Of a DNA stretch of 40,626 nucleotides, positions 718-18,480 are shown in pieces. The notes below the pieces were generated by a model. That model did not search any database and was not told the DNA's origin. It worked only from the letters and a program-made list of their open reading frames with translations. Numbering within the stretch: the first letter of the stretch is position 1; each line of letters starts with the position of its first letter. The stretch covers positions 1-40,626 of the IMG/VR virus record IMGVR_UViG_3300026521_000606; one strand, given 5' to 3'. Origin of the DNA: a virus. Made by a program: the position numbers and the translations under genes.

Positions 718-1053
718 TTATGGAGCATTATACACGCTAAAAAATTTGAAACAAATTAAAGTTGCATATAGAATTATTATAAATATCGTATCGAATATAA
801 ATAAATATTTTGATAAATGTTTGTCTTTGTGGAAAAAATATTTATGATGTAGGCTACATACTGTTATTAAGTCTTCAATATCCTCGTTGAAAACCCTCTT
901 GTATGTAAGATGATGTACTTGTAGTTTTTTTTCACAACCACAAACTATACACTTGTAATTATCTCTTTTTAGGACTTGCACTCTCTTTGAGTGCCAAGCC
1001 TTACTTCTTAAGTATCTTAAATACTTTTCCTTATATGATTTCTTTAACATCAT
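718..1053 (-). CDS. HNH endonuclease-like protein with C-terminal membrane segment
   Basis: 111 aa. Residues 13-33 (YLRSKAWHSKRVQVLKRDNY) are the typical lead-in of small HNH nucleases, followed by a CxxC pair at 'KCIVCGC', the HH of 'LQVHHLTY', and the closing 'LITVCSLHHKYF'. These are the zinc-binding and catalytic-type residues of the beta-beta-alpha metal fold. After residue 80 comes a hydrophobic stretch (IFDTIFIIILYATLICF) that looks like one membrane helix, which is unusual for this family. The start overlaps the end of the ParA gene by 23 bases, so translation is coupled. Its role could be homing, packaging-type cleavage or defence; nothing here decides. The nuclease call is good, the membrane helix is a prediction by eye. 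Confidence 0.65.
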   Translation of the reverse strand: MMLKKSYKEKYLRYLRSKAWHSKRVQVLKRDNYKCIVCGCEKKLQVHHLTYKRVFNEDIEDLITVCSLHHKYFFHKDKHLSKYLFIFDTIFIIILYATLICFKFFSVYNAP

Positions 1054-1813
1054 TATAAAAGCCTAAGAATGATTTTTCGTGATTATCTTTACACTTATTA
1101 TAGACTTGAACGAAACCAAGTGCTTTTTTAAATGCTTCAAAGCCTTTGTCTTTTTCGTCTTTTAAAAATTTAGGTATGTTCATATCTTCTTTTGCTATTT
1201 CGTATGATGTAAGCTCATAGTCTTCGCTCAGGTCATAAACATTCGTATCAAGTAAAGATGATATTTGCAAGTTGTTATCGCTGTATATATCTTCAAATAC
1301 TCCTTTGATGTTCATCTCTTTGCTACCGAAAAAATAAACAAACTCATTTTTAATGCTTTCAATATCGTTAAACTTGCATTGATTTAAAACTACTACTATT
1401 TTAGAGTTCGATTTTTTTCGTATTAGCTTATATGTATTTATAAAGTTAATCATACCACTCTTGTTTTTCAGAATTGGAATAAAATAAATAACATTTTCAT
1501 CTATACCCATAGAGGAAATAGCTTCAATCGCTTTGTTTGTATCGTTTCCTCCACCTATATCAAGCACTATATTTTCATCTTCAAAAATATTAAACATTTC
1601 CTCTAGTGCCTTTCCTATACCATTTTCAACTTTATAACTTTTGTGAGTAAAAATAGAGCTTGTGTATCCGTCTGTTATATTGTTATCGTCAATCTCTATA
1701 AGCTTGTGTTTTTTGTTATATTTTTCATACAAACAACTTGTCAAAACTTGATGACTGATTGTACTCTTTCCTACTCCACCTTTGCTACTAAGTGATACTA
1801 AAAATTTACCCAT
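1031..1813 (-). CDS. parA: ParA-family partition ATPase
   Basis: 260 aa. Near the N-terminus is the deviant Walker A box KGGVGKST (residues 11-18) with the signature lysine, followed by a helix and, near residue 83, the Walker A' strand VLDIGGG, and later 'VVVLNQ', the usual N of the nucleotide pocket. There is no N-terminal HTH, so it is of the type Ib/III-like length class rather than P1-type ParA. It would form ATP-dependent dimers on DNA and move or position the replicon. It follows directly (4 bases) a small RHH protein that is the natural centromere-binding partner, with ribosome site AAAGGA before ATG 1813. Presence in a phage genome implies plasmid maintenance during lysogeny. An orphan MinD-like function is a less likely alternative. 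Confidence 0.85.
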   Translation of the reverse strand: MGKFLVSLSSKGGVGKSTISHQVLTSCLYEKYNKKHKLIEIDDNNITDGYTSSIFTHKSYKVENGIGKALEEMFNIFEDENIVLDIGGGNDTNKAIEAISSMGIDENVIYFIPILKNKSGMINFINTYKLIRKKSNSKIVVVLNQCKFNDIESIKNEFVYFFGSKEMNIKGVFEDIYSDNNLQISSLLDTNVYDLSEDYELTSYEIAKEDMNIPKFLKDEKDKGFEAFKKALGFVQVYNKCKDNHEKSFLGFYNDVKEII

Positions 1814-1817
1814 AATT

Positions 1818-2045
1818 CTATCCTTTGTTTTTCCATCTTTCTAAAAAAGTGTTACTATCGCAACTCTCAACTCTATTTATATCTTCCGTAACTTTTCCGT
1901 CAAACTTGCTTAACATTTCAGTAATCGCAATCATAAAAAACTCTTGTCTATTAGAGGGCTTTTTGCTATCAAACCTATCTATGCAGTCGTTTATTGCTTT
2001 TGAAATCTCAATTGGCATAGTTACTGTACTTTTAACTGTCTTCAT
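1818..2045 (-). CDS. Ribbon-helix-helix protein, candidate ParB-type centromere binder
   Basis: 75 aa. Residues 3-45 (KSTVTMPIEISKAINDCIDR and the following helix with SNRQEFFMIAITEML) show a short beta strand with alternating polar/hydrophobic residues, then two helices: the MetJ/Arc fold pattern. Such proteins bind DNA as dimers to direct repeats, and in type Ib partition systems the RHH protein is the adaptor for ParA. Start overlaps the preceding stop as ATGA (2042-2045) and ParA begins 4 bases downstream, so the three are one transcription unit. I assign the partition role by position; it may also autoregulate. Confidence 0.6.
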   Translation of the reverse strand: MKTVKSTVTMPIEISKAINDCIDRFDSKKPSNRQEFFMIAITEMLSKFDGKVTEDINRVESCDSNTFLERWKNKG

Positions 2046-2320
2046 TTTTCCGTAACTTTTTCGTAAGATTTAAGTTTATTTTCCTTAATCTTTTTAAGTA
2101 TCTTTAAATACTTTTTATTTCCTCTTTTTGTAGCAAGTTCAAAGGCTAAGTCAAAAAAGAAGTGATTTATAGCCATAATTGCACCACTACTTCTATCCAT
2201 TTTTGTCACGCTTGTTATGTTCCTATTTGCAAACATATAAAAGCTATGCTGTAGGTTTTTATCCCCTACTGCTTTTCTTATATCAAAAAGTGTAAATGTC
2301 ATAGATTTATCATTCAACAT
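2042..2320 (-). CDS. Hypothetical protein in the par operon
   Basis: 92 aa when started at ATG 2318-2320. A longer frame exists to 2353 but the upstream part overlaps the small ORF at 2322-2435, and the stop of that ORF lies directly before this ATG. I do not recognise the family. The N-terminal half (MLNDKSMTFTLFDIRKAVGD) and the segment SSGAIMAINHFFFDLAFELA are partly hydrophobic; the C-terminal 35 residues are rich in lysine and probably helical. Its stop overlaps the ATG of the RHH protein (ATGA). Position suggests a partner in partition or regulation. Confidence 0.55.
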   Translation of the reverse strand: MLNDKSMTFTLFDIRKAVGDKNLQHSFYMFANRNITSVTKMDRSSGAIMAINHFFFDLAFELATKRGNKKYLKILKKIKENKLKSYEKVTEK

Positions 2321-2321
2321 T

Positions 2322-2435
2322 TTATAACTCCAGCTCTTTTTTAAAATTCTCAAAATCTTTGAAAGACCAACTCTTTGTGTTTATACCTTTTTCTTTAGCC
2401 AACTCTATTAATTTTCGTGTTTCGTTCATACTCAT
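2322..2435 (-). CDS. Small hypothetical protein, 37 aa
   Basis: ATG at 2433-2435 has an AAAAAAGG ribosome site about 5 bases upstream. The product starts MSMNETRKLIELAKEKGINT and ends in KDFENFKKELEL. It looks like a helix-turn-helix sized peptide with an amphipathic first helix, too short to classify. The stop (2322-2324) is 1 base from the ATG of the next gene, which supports real translation. It explains why the longer frame of the next gene should be rejected. Confidence 0.5.
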   Translation of the reverse strand: MSMNETRKLIELAKEKGINTKSWSFKDFENFKKELEL

Positions 2436-3089: not shown

Positions 3090-3095
3090 TATAAT
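3090..3095 (+). promoter_or_regulatory. Candidate promoter of the rep leader RNA
   Basis: A perfect TATAAT on the plus strand, with no good -35 but T-rich upstream DNA, as is common in Campylobacterota. A start about 7-12 bases downstream would put the first paired base of the leader structure (3109) right at the RNA 5' end. Confidence 0.45.
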
Positions 3096-3101
3096 TTTAC
3101 A

Positions 3102-3260
3102 CGAATTAATTATCTTATACGATGCACTACTTGATTTCAAGTCACGGACTCCCGTTCGTGGCGAATAGTCTTCGTATTAAGATAATATGCTCATTTGTTT
3201 AAAATCTTTTGAGGGTACCAACCTCGTGAGTAGCGTTTGCTACTCTCAAAGGATTTTTTT
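3102..3260 (+). ncRNA. Structured leader RNA / small RNA ahead of rep: three-way junction plus terminator
   Basis: Pairing visible in the sequence: outer stem 3109-3122 with 3172-3186 (14 pairs, one bulged T); inner hairpin ACTTGA-TT-TCAAGT 3129-3142; inner hairpin 3147-3170 (GACT/AGTC, then GTTCG-TGG-CGAAT). Then an independent stem 3202-3213 with 3245-3256 (12 pairs, one G-U), capped by GAGTAGC-GTTT-GCTACTC (3228-3245), followed by seven T (3254-3260), an intrinsic terminator. The unpaired side of this stem (3213-3225) is complementary over 13 bases to 3279-3291. A 26-codon ORF (3122-3202, no ribosome site) ends exactly where the terminator stem begins and might be a leader peptide. I know no named RNA family that it matches. 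Confidence 0.45.
3202..3260 (+). terminator. Intrinsic terminator/attenuator in the rep leader
   Basis: Two-storey hairpin (outer stem 12 pairs, upper stem 7 pairs with GTTT loop) directly followed by TTTTTTT. It lies 90-145 bases before the rep start codon on the same strand, so it would control rep transcription by premature termination. Confidence 0.65.
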
Positions 3261-3278
3261 ACACGAAGTAATTAATGA

Positions 3279-3313
3279 GAGGTTGGTACCCCCTTATTAA
3301 TCTTCTAATAAGG
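3279..3313 (+). promoter_or_regulatory. Downstream complement and hairpin before rep
   Basis: GAGGTTGGTACCC (3279-3291) is the exact reverse complement of 3213-3225 in the upstream hairpin, allowing a pseudoknot in the full-length mRNA or a trans interaction with the terminated RNA. It is immediately followed by a perfect 8-bp hairpin CCTTATTA-ATCTTC-TAATAAGG (3292-3313), which contains the only AAGG-like ribosome site of the leader, 34 bases before ATG 3348. The rep start itself has no clear Shine-Dalgarno site. Confidence 0.45.
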
Positions 3314-3347
3314 TAAATTCCTAAATTCAATATACCGATATAAAAAT

Positions 3348-4211
3348 ATGAGTATTAAACAGATGACTTTTGTATTTGATGATTCAAGTATAAAGGGAAA
3401 TGAAAAACTTCTAATGCTATCCATAGCAGATAATTGCAATGATTCTGGTGTAGCTTTCCCATCGTGGAAAGAGTTAATGAGAAAAACATCAATGAGTAAA
3501 GGCTCTATATCAAAATGGATAAAATCTCTTGAAAAGAAAAATCTATTATTTAGAGTAACAAGAAAAAGAAAAAATGGAAGTAGTACATCAAATAAGTATC
3601 TCATTTATCCGTATAAAAACAAAGATATTTTAGATGAAGAAGATTATTTAATTTTTAAGGATTTATATCATAGTTCAGAAGTTGAACACCCTAGTTCAGA
3701 AGTTGAACACCCTAGTTCAGAAGTTGAACACCCTAGTTCAGAAGTTGAACACCCTAGTTCAGAAGTTGAACACCCTAATGGGGGGCAGAGTTCAGAAGTT
3801 GAACACCTTGAACCATCACTTATATCTTTTAACCATAATATTAAACCATCACTTATAGACAAAATAAACATTGAAGCATTAAATGAATGGATAAATTTAA
3901 AAGGTAAAAAATATTCACAACTAGCAGTAACTAAGTGTATAAACTTCTTATGTAAGTACGATAAACAAACACAACAAGAGATAATAGACACAAGCATTAT
4001 GAATGGGTGGCAGGGATTATTTCCACCTAAACAAACAAACAACAACAAGCCTAATATGAGCTTTAAACAACAAGACGCTGAAAGAACAAGCCACGCAGTT
4101 GATGTATTTATGGAAGCAAGAAAAAACGGCTTTAGTATTAGAGATTTAGGAAGAGATGAGAATAAACAAGAAGATTTTGATGAAGCTATGTTTATAGATT
4201 GGGAGGAATAA
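3348..4211 (+). CDS. Replication initiator (winged-helix, phage O/DnaD-like)
   Basis: 287 aa. Residues about 10-85 form a winged helix: NEKLLMLSIADNCNDSG, WKELMRKTSMSKGSISKWIK (recognition helix), then a basic wing with VTRKRKNGSSTSNKYLI. This is the N-terminal form seen in many phage and plasmid primosomal initiators. Residues 108-154 are a low-complexity linker of SSEVEHP repeats encoded by iterons. Residues 175-227 (helical, ending IMNGWQGLFPP) look like the small DnaD/O-type C-terminal domain with its W-x-G-x-F-P motif. The protein would bind the iterons in its own gene, melt the neighbouring AT-rich repeats and recruit helicase loader/helicase. ATG 3348 lacks a clear ribosome site, which fits RNA-structure control. 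Followed after 3 bases by the next gene. Confidence 0.75.
   Translation: MSIKQMTFVFDDSSIKGNEKLLMLSIADNCNDSGVAFPSWKELMRKTSMSKGSISKWIKSLEKKNLLFRVTRKRKNGSSTSNKYLIYPYKNKDILDEEDYLIFKDLYHSSEVEHPSSEVEHPSSEVEHPSSEVEHPSSEVEHPNGGQSSEVEHLEPSLISFNHNIKPSLIDKINIEALNEWINLKGKKYSQLAVTKCINFLCKYDKQTQQEIIDTSIMNGWQGLFPPKQTNNNKPNMSFKQQDAERTSHAVDVFMEARKNGFSIRDLGRDENKQEDFDEAMFIDWEE
3671..3807 (+). repeat. Six iterons of a replication origin inside the initiator gene
   Basis: Five exact tandem 21-bp units (TAGTTCAGAAGTTGAACACCC) start at 3671, 3692, 3713, 3734 and 3755; a sixth (3789-3807) follows a 13-base interruption. Each unit contains the inverted repeat GTTCA-gaagt-TGAAC. Units are two helical turns apart, so bound proteins face the same side. 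Arrangement and place match the phage lambda origin within gene O. In the protein they encode SSEVEHP. Confidence 0.75.
3811..3857 (+). repeat. AT-rich direct repeats next to the iterons, candidate DNA-unwinding element
   Basis: The 14-mer AACCATCACTTATA occurs at 3811-3824 and 3844-3857, with a partial copy AACCATAATA at 3831. They follow the last iteron by 3 bases, the position held by 13-mer melting repeats in iteron origins. They encode the repeated PSLI in the protein. Confidence 0.5.
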
Positions 4212-17413: not shown

Positions 17414-17635
17414 ATGACACTTGAAGAATTAAAGTATGAAAAAATGCAAGATATGAAAATGGACGCTATTGAAGAGGAGCTACTAAGTAGTGATTATGAC
17501 TATGCCTATGAAAAGCTAGTAACTGAAAGCTACTGTCTTGATAAGATAAATGAGTGCCTTGTAAGTATAGCTAGTGAAATGAGACTTCACGGGTGGGAAA
17601 TAACAGATAAAGAAATATTAGAGGATATATTATAA
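17414..17635 (+). CDS. Hypothetical protein, 73 aa
   Basis: ATG 17414 with AAAGGA. Acidic and helical: MTLEELKYEKMQDMKMDAIE, then 'DYDYAYEKLVTESYCLDKIN' and 'RLHGWEITDKEILEDIL'. TAATG overlap with thyX (17633-17637) means translation is coupled. Function unknown. Confidence 0.5.
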   Translation: MTLEELKYEKMQDMKMDAIEEELLSSDYDYAYEKLVTESYCLDKINECLVSIASEMRLHGWEITDKEILEDIL

Positions 17636-18480
17636 TGATTGAGATTGGAAATGTTTTATATAAAGAACCTAGAGTAGAGTTGCTTCACGCAACTCCATTA
17701 TATGTAGCTGAGGTTGCTGGTCGTACTGCTTATAATAGTTTTGAAAAATCAGAACACGAAAAAATAAGAGAGTGGAAAGGTTATCAATTAAAAGATGACA
17801 TTGAAAGCTCTGAAATACTAAATAGTTTGGCGTGGGTACACCACCACCATAGCGTACTTGAATTGATAAATATATCATTTAGTATCAAAGACACATCAAG
17901 AGGTGTGCTACAAGAGTTTTCAAGACATAGAATACAATCACTTACTGTAAAAAGTACAAGATATACTATGAGCGATATACTTAATGCTTTTATTGCTTCA
18001 TACATAACTTTCAATGACTACAGTTTAATGTTTAACTCTTTTGTTGAGATAGTGAGAGAATGCAACATAGATTTTCTAGTAATTTTAGAGGAGGATGAAG
18101 TAGAAATTGAATTAAGATATATTTTTGAAAAATTGCTAAGAATGATTAATAAAATTGGAGAGGAAGAGTTTTTAAAACTTTCTCTTTCAAAGGAAAATAT
18201 TGAATTTTGTAATTGTAGTGTTTTGTCTAATACGAATATTGAAGTATTTAATGAACTAAAAAAAGGAAAAGTAAAAAGGAATGTAGGGGATAATTTCAAA
18301 AATATAGTTACGGATTGCTGGACTACTGAAATTGTTTTCAATATGAATTTACGATCACTAAAAAACTTTTTAAATCTTAGAAATAGTGGTAGTGCGTACC
18401 CACTTATGAGAGAGTTGGCTATAGCAATTCAATCTCAAGTACCGAAAAAATATCTTGACTTGATAGTGAGAGATAAGTAG
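17635..18480 (+). CDS. thyX: Flavin-dependent thymidylate synthase ThyX
   Basis: 281 aa. The ThyX signature RHR-x7-S is present in 'EFSRHRIQSLTVKSTRY' (about residue 99-114), preceded by 'HHHHSVLELINISFSI' (the H of the N-terminal motif), and followed by 'SLKNFLNLRNSGSAYPLMRE' whose LRN..A...MRELA matches the C-terminal dUMP/FAD-contact motif. It makes dTMP from dUMP using FAD and methylenetetrahydrofolate, for phage DNA synthesis. Slightly longer than the usual 200-250 aa because of an insert at about residues 120-195. It is the last gene of the rightward cassette, ending in a hairpin with the convergent late gene. ThyX is common in Campylobacterota, in line with host inference. Confidence 0.9.
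   Translation: MIEIGNVLYKEPRVELLHATPLYVAEVAGRTAYNSFEKSEHEKIREWKGYQLKDDIESSEILNSLAWVHHHHSVLELINISFSIKDTSRGVLQEFSRHRIQSLTVKSTRYTMSDILNAFIASYITFNDYSLMFNSFVEIVRECNIDFLVILEEDEVEIELRYIFEKLLRMINKIGEEEFLKLSLSKENIEFCNCSVLSNTNIEVFNELKKGKVKRNVGDNFKNIVTDCWTTEIVFNMNLRSLKNFLNLRNSGSAYPLMRELAIAIQSQVPKKYLDLIVRDK

Follow-up and report, generated by a model that had tools for sequence, protein, structure and literature searches.

A candidate same-transcript antisense RNA in the leader of a phage replication initiator gene

Upstream of the replication initiator gene (rep) of a phage is a strongly folded leader, which we regard as genuine, and as a locus of RNA control that is probably functional. Enclosed in one of its stems is a 13-base strand, X, whose perfect complement, X′, lies downstream on the same strand. 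On balance we favour reading the leader as the locus of a same-transcript antisense RNA that controls rep and would work like the C4 RNA of phage P1, the CI RNA of phage P4 and the IsrK RNA of Gifsy-1. Computation shows the anatomy, how rarely it arises by chance, and that three other phages and true C4 loci share the layout. The source is a linear virus contig of 40,626 nt (40.6 kb; IMG/VR record IMGVR_UViG_3300026521_000606, positions 1 to 40,626), analysed at full length and referred to here as the window.

The phage and its replication module

The replication module and its surroundings comprise the following features.

1031–1813, minus strand: ParA-like ATPase adjoining the rep module (weak Pfam match)
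3348–4211, plus strand: rep, lambda-O/DnaD-like replication initiator of 287 aa (PHROG 678 and Pfam HTH_36)
3671–3777, plus strand: tandem 21-bp repeats within rep, five units TAGTTCAGAAGTTGAACACCC (sequence repeat search)

The rep product matches the O-like family PHROG 678 (E 7e-25) and Pfam HTH_36 (E 1.6e-9). Close homologues were found neither in viral contigs nor in genome contigs, and comparison with phages and plasmids gave distant N- or C-terminal matches only. The repeats inside the gene are probable origin iterons, by analogy with lambda O.

The portal and the DarB-type methylase-helicase of the window phage are related to those of D6 and P1, both plasmid prophages; judged by the portal protein, D6 is the nearest named relative found. 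The position of the ParA-like gene next to the rep module suggests that the window phage may itself be a plasmid prophage; ParA was not detected in the other phages with the layout, and plasmid life is therefore suggested for this phage only. The host probably lies within the Campylobacterota, because the only plasmid relative of the ParA-like protein is found on Helicobacter cetorum plasmid pHCD (28% identical). Beside the ParA-like gene are two small ORFs (1031–2353, minus strand). The phage also encodes ThyX, a flavin-dependent thymidylate synthase (17635–18480; Pfam Thy1, E 6e-27). A tRNA-like structure was looked for and none was found.

Anatomy and folding of the leader

The elements of the leader, all on the plus strand, are listed in order of their first position.

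3090–3095, plus strand: −10 box TATAAT of the leader promoter (sequence)
3095–3112 and 3257–3274, plus strand: two copies of the 18-base TTTTACACGAAKTAATTA, at the start site and after the terminator (repeat search)
3102–3190, plus strand: 5′ structured domain with a 14-bp outer stem (3109–3122/3172–3186), branched or unbranched inside (fold)
3122–3202, plus strand: 26-codon ORF (no ribosome site in the sequence)
3192–3203, plus strand: linker complementary to rep codons 3–7 (3355–3366), 12 bp with one G-U
3201–3260, plus strand: terminator hairpin, with stem P1 (3201–3212/3246–3257) and inner hairpin 3228–3245 (sequence and fold)
3213–3225, plus strand: strand X, GGGTACCAACCTC, candidate antisense sequence of 13 bases, beginning right after the 5′ arm of stem P1
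3254–3260, plus strand: seven U (seven T in the DNA) closing the terminator (sequence)
3271–3301, plus strand: target hairpin ATTAATGAG/CTTATTAAT (stem 3271–3279/3293–3301), with X′ in its loop (fold of 3262–3375)
3279–3291, plus strand: X′, GAGGTTGGTACCC, candidate target, perfect complement of X
3292–3313, plus strand: hairpin CCTTATTA/TAATAAGG next to the X:X′ helix, carrying AAGG (minimum-energy fold)

The −10 box, the stems, the terminator, the ORF and the rep ATG at 3348 all lie where the initial annotation had placed them. Its description of a structured leader before a replication initiator in a phage agrees with the PHROG match and with the fold of 3102–3348, which reaches −72.3 kcal/mol against −43.8 ± 4.1 kcal/mol in 200 dinucleotide shuffles (z −6.9). 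Two of its parts are each significant alone: the 5′ domain folds at −27.2 kcal/mol (z −5.0), and the terminator-like hairpin with its seven U, likewise borne out, at −23.3 kcal/mol (z −5.1), with a three-stem alternative at −20.8 kcal/mol. The terminator was not called by a simple terminator scan, though hairpin and U-tract are both present. A three-way junction had been drawn for the 5′ domain; it is at most a possible form, the forced branched fold (−25.3 kcal/mol) lying 1.9 kcal/mol above the unbranched one.

Two readings of the translation signals are not plausible. The AAGG in hairpin 3292–3313, described earlier as the only sequence resembling a ribosome site, is 34 bases before the ATG, too far to serve rep, and no ribosome site is present near this start codon; the ORF at 3122–3202, proposed as a leader peptide, has the right coordinates but lacks a ribosome site.

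The second copy of TTTTACACGAAKTAATTA, following the terminator, is a possible repressor operator. The motif ACACGAA occurs 11 times in the window, against 3.2 expected; at 2420 (minus strand), 2940, 3099, 3261, 481 (minus strand) and other positions it is followed by an AT-rich stretch, and such sites could be asymmetric operators resembling those of phage P1 C1.

Pairing between X and X′

X has a single exact complement in the window, X′, which ends 57 bases before the rep ATG. The X:X′ helix has a predicted energy of −28.6 kcal/mol, about 12 kcal/mol beyond the next best helix (−16.4 kcal/mol) among the 56 ORF upstream regions of the window; none of 1,000 shuffles reaches it (z −8.5), and a stem with a crossing helix this strong appeared in 0 of 120 simulated genomes of the same size. 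The perfect 13-base complementarity given in the initial annotation is borne out.

In the long RNA the X:X′ fold is the minimum-energy one (−82.8 kcal/mol, against −76.2 kcal/mol for the terminator fold), and each of the two excludes the other. Mutually exclusive as well are the hairpins 3271–3301 and 3292–3313, and when the downstream part is folded in isolation positions 3284–3287, within X′, are unpaired. The linker ahead of stem P1 offers a possible second target contact through its pairing with rep codons 3–7, which 9 of 400 shuffles equalled; short-RNA pairing around the translation start stood out in the window only, and not at the other loci described below.

X′ is made after the terminator has acted and therefore has no role as an antiterminator in cis; its effect is more likely to be exerted on translation, on the fate of the RNA, or in trans. 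This order also weighs against plain attenuation, whereby host or phage factors, or the 5′ domain through put- or nut-like antitermination, would control read-through and X′ would be of minor importance. Such a scheme draws on the strength of the hairpin, on its seven U and on the structured domain immediately following the promoter, but X′ could not compete with the terminator in cis, X:X′ as the strongest feature is left unexplained and the U-tract is not conserved at other loci; we consider it very improbable.

Recurrence of the layout in other phages

The layout, defined as a perfect TATAAT, a stem enclosing X, and X′ downstream on the same strand, recurs with unrelated sequence at four loci in three phages: two in G001 and one each in G002 and G003. 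G001 is the one related phage reached through the portal protein (56% identity); portal and sheath alignments against viral contigs gave G001 alone, and those against genome contigs gave nothing. It shares morphogenesis genes with the window phage, but not the window's rep. A fold scan of every position of both genomes, unbiased as to locus, placed the window leader among the most structured places, together with two stretches upstream of the G001 rep operon. These hold the two elements of G001.

G001 element 1: X GAGGGTCGAAGTTC in a 15-bp stem; X′ GGACTTCGACCCTC downstream, in the loop of CTGATTAT/ATAATCAG
G001 element 2: X GCGCAACTGACTGTTT in a 13–14-bp stem; X′ GGGCAGTTGGTTGCGC downstream

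The two elements are the two best crossing-stem hits of the 56-kb G001 genome, and their X:X′ helices contain G-U pairs. Downstream of element 1 is a fragment of an ORF6C (antirepressor-type) gene, and downstream of element 2 is the gene preceding rep. Centred on the −10 box before element 2 (minus strand, 46154–46124) is a palindrome of about 29 bases, TTTTATGTGGGTATAATACTCACGTAAAA, positioned as a repressor operator would be.

Further phages were found with the G001 rep as query, of which G002 (locus L013) and G003 (locus L024) have long non-coding leaders. In G002 no crossing-stem hit scores better than the layout at L013. The helix of about 20 bp at L024 is interrupted by a bulge, and for this reason the locus does not have the top contiguous score of its genome. 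The layout is missing from members of the G001 rep family that have no long leader, rep coming straight after another gene. High-scoring crossings at the GC-rich loci L009, L020 and L021 were left out, chance hits being abundant there. Between the promoter and the element at L013 is a further hairpin resembling an intrinsic terminator (2745–2774, ATCACTTAGCACTTGCTAGGTGATTTTT).

Each of the five loci is preceded on the sense strand by a perfect TATAAT, and the distance from the end of X′ to the start codon is about 47–57 bases in four of the five. Flanking stems around X′ resembling those of the window are present in G001 element 1 and at L013. The U-tract after the stem is found in the window only, so elsewhere an RNase would have to cut out the short RNA. 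The window rep lacks close homology to the other reps, and because the sequences of the five loci do not align there is no column-by-column covariation; the argument for a family is one of repeated independent pairing. Different letters with the same pairing are what specificity in immunity or incompatibility would produce, RNAs of this sort being expected to diverge fast in sequence. The recurrence suggests that self-targeting control RNAs form a family here, similar to the immunity RNAs of phages P1 and P4.

D6 served as positive control for both Rfam and the crossing-stem descriptor. Rfam reported two C4 loci (76 and 69.6 bits, gathering scan), one isrK locus (59.1 bits) and one C4-target motif in this phage, and the descriptor recovered both C4 loci, ranking them near the top for the genome; at these loci X′ sits on the ribosome site of icd. 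The isrK-like RNA immediately precedes a C4 RNA, which in turn precedes icd-ant (L052, 29233–29443), so that both RNA types stand in tandem in one D6 leader.

Two further readings need no RNA acting in trans. In the first, a purely cis-acting switch, X:X′ in the read-through RNA would remodel the leader, perhaps together with a ligand such as Rep, and tune translation or stability of the rep mRNA, the terminator serving to lower read-through. X:X′ being the minimum-energy fold of the long RNA is consistent with it, as are the linker's pairing in cis with the rep codons and the four of five loci without a U-tract terminator to free a short RNA. A ligand sensor would, however, keep a conserved core, whereas X, X′ and stem P1 are wholly different between phages; true C4 loci share the topology, and a perfect 13-base match exceeds the length of usual cis pseudoknots. 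A switch of this kind is unlikely, in our estimate, although we take it seriously. In the second, the inverted repeat 3213–3225/3279–3291 with its inner hairpin would be a DNA element, either part of an origin or a protein site. Inverted repeats are common at origins, and the probable iterons at 3671–3777 are near. Those iterons lie elsewhere, however, inside rep; a perfect TATAAT lies ahead of the element at every locus, the spacing to the start codon is similar, the G-U pairs of the G001 helices are tolerated by RNA and would break a DNA inverted repeat, and G001 element 1 precedes an antirepressor fragment rather than an origin. We give a DNA element hardly any weight.

Comparison with described control RNAs

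The initial annotation knew of no described family for the structure. As to sequence this stands: Rfam searches at gathering and permissive thresholds, covering the leader, G001 and many of the loci, gave nothing relevant; the C4 model (RF01695) matched neither the window nor G001 at E ≤ 10, the isrK model (RF01394) had no match in the window or G001 stretch L006, and the C4-target motif is absent from the window and L006. No homologue of the window leader was found. As to logic the claim was too strong, since the underlying principle, in which a promoter is followed by a structured RNA that may terminate as a short RNA and then, on one transcript, by the complement, is already that of P1/P7 C4, P4 CI and Gifsy-1 IsrK; what appears to be new is the sequence class and its position before rep genes.

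C4 has three stems and is processed out of the very transcript that it represses (PMC5320573). As with the candidate of the window, the antisense RNA of P1, P7 and D6 lies upstream of its target in a single transcript, an outer stem enclosing small hairpins and the antisense strand, with the complement downstream, to which correspond the X closed in a stem and the downstream X′. C4 precedes icd-ant, as G001 element 1 precedes the antirepressor-type fragment. The C4 target is at the ribosome-binding site of icd-ant, in contrast to an X′ 57 bases from the ATG of rep; C4 is cut by RNase P, where the window has a terminator hairpin, and has two paired segments, where the window has one copy of X′.

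IsrK is a terminated short RNA that acts in trans, the read-through mRNA pairing with the same strand (PMC4825925). Its promoter, intrinsic terminator and read-through mRNA pairing with the middle of the short RNA have putative counterparts in the window, and two alternative folds of similar energy are predicted there too. IsrK, however, activates the antirepressor operon orf45-anrP whereas the window gene is a replication initiator, and pairs over about 30 nt instead of 13 bases; it acts in trans on its own mRNA, as the short RNA of the window would.

P4 CI is located in the leader of the replication operon that it controls (PMC4825925). This RNA (seqA/seqB/seqC) and the window share a position in an untranslated replication-operon leader and complementarity to a stretch farther down the leader; CI differs in having two targets, seqA upstream and seqC downstream, where in the window only a downstream one was found, and in being processed and promoting termination. 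By analogy, the window would thus combine an IsrK-type terminator, a C4-type strand enclosed in a stem and a P4-type target in a replication gene.

The closest logic had been sought in IncB/IncI-alpha plasmids, where a countertranscript from the opposite strand (RNAI) would bind the X hairpin and block an X:X′ pseudoknot needed for rep translation, coupled to a leader peptide. These plasmids do have a structured rep leader with a hairpin strand able to pair downstream; the placement of X in a hairpin with its partner downstream, before rep, is as in I-complex plasmids (references in PMC10724649), and an antisense −10 box matching at five of six positions (TATATT) is present in the window. At the other loci, however, the best antisense −10 box matches at four to five of six, and a perfect one downstream of the stem occurs at 0 of 5, against the perfect sense box at 5 of 5; no antisense promoter of a quality comparable to the sense one was found in the window. 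The plasmid leader peptide is translated and controls the fold, whereas none in the window is translatable, and the plasmid pseudoknot partner lies directly upstream of the rep ribosome site, unlike X′. A full 13-bp H-type pseudoknot with stem P1 intact also appears sterically unlikely, because X follows stem P1 without a spacer. Control of the IncB type is therefore an improbable account of the leader.

Proposed mechanism

From the anatomy we infer promoter use, termination, action in trans and the sign of that action, for the same-transcript antisense reading, as follows. Transcription from the TATAAT at 3090–3095 would start near 3102 and would mostly end at 3260, releasing a short RNA with X in the terminator hairpin. 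Transcripts reading through would carry X′ (3279–3291) and then rep. The amount of short RNA would be proportional to the number of phage genomes, and its X would pair in trans with X′ of the read-through RNA, thereby setting rep expression. Of the two signs, repression (the mode of C4 and CI) is favoured over activation (the mode of IsrK), because it would give both immunity and copy-number control of a plasmid prophage. Counted against the proposal are the missing Rfam match to C4 or isrK, the position of X′ off the rep ribosome site, the single copy of X′, the U-tract confined to the window and the lack of alignable relatives of the leader.

More tentatively, and with somewhat less than even confidence, we suggest that an unrecognised, sequence-divergent class of same-strand antisense RNAs may regulate the replication initiators of plasmid-like phages that are AT-rich. 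An RNA derived from the rep transcript itself, by cutting or termination, would set copy number and superinfection immunity, X would determine incompatibility, and members would be recognisable by layout only. Sharing layout but no sequence, they are missed by family databases.

In RNA control of plasmid copy number a countertranscript is usual. A same-strand RNA within a rep leader, if true, would join the phage immunity RNAs (C4, CI and IsrK) to plasmid copy control. Having picked out four more loci, in three phages, as well as the two C4 loci of D6, the crossing-stem scan could show how many phages carry such RNAs; the variable X strands would allow mutual exclusion between phage-plasmids to be predicted.

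A different RNA, without a match in Rfam, was seen at three loci (L036, 1880–1975; L037, 395–490; L041, 2110–2210), where the loop of a hairpin is complementary to the loop of the next intrinsic terminator. The loop pairs, GTGCAAG/CTTGCAC, GTAGACA/TGTCTAC and GTGAAGG/CCTTCAC, respectively, are exact and change together in the three phages.
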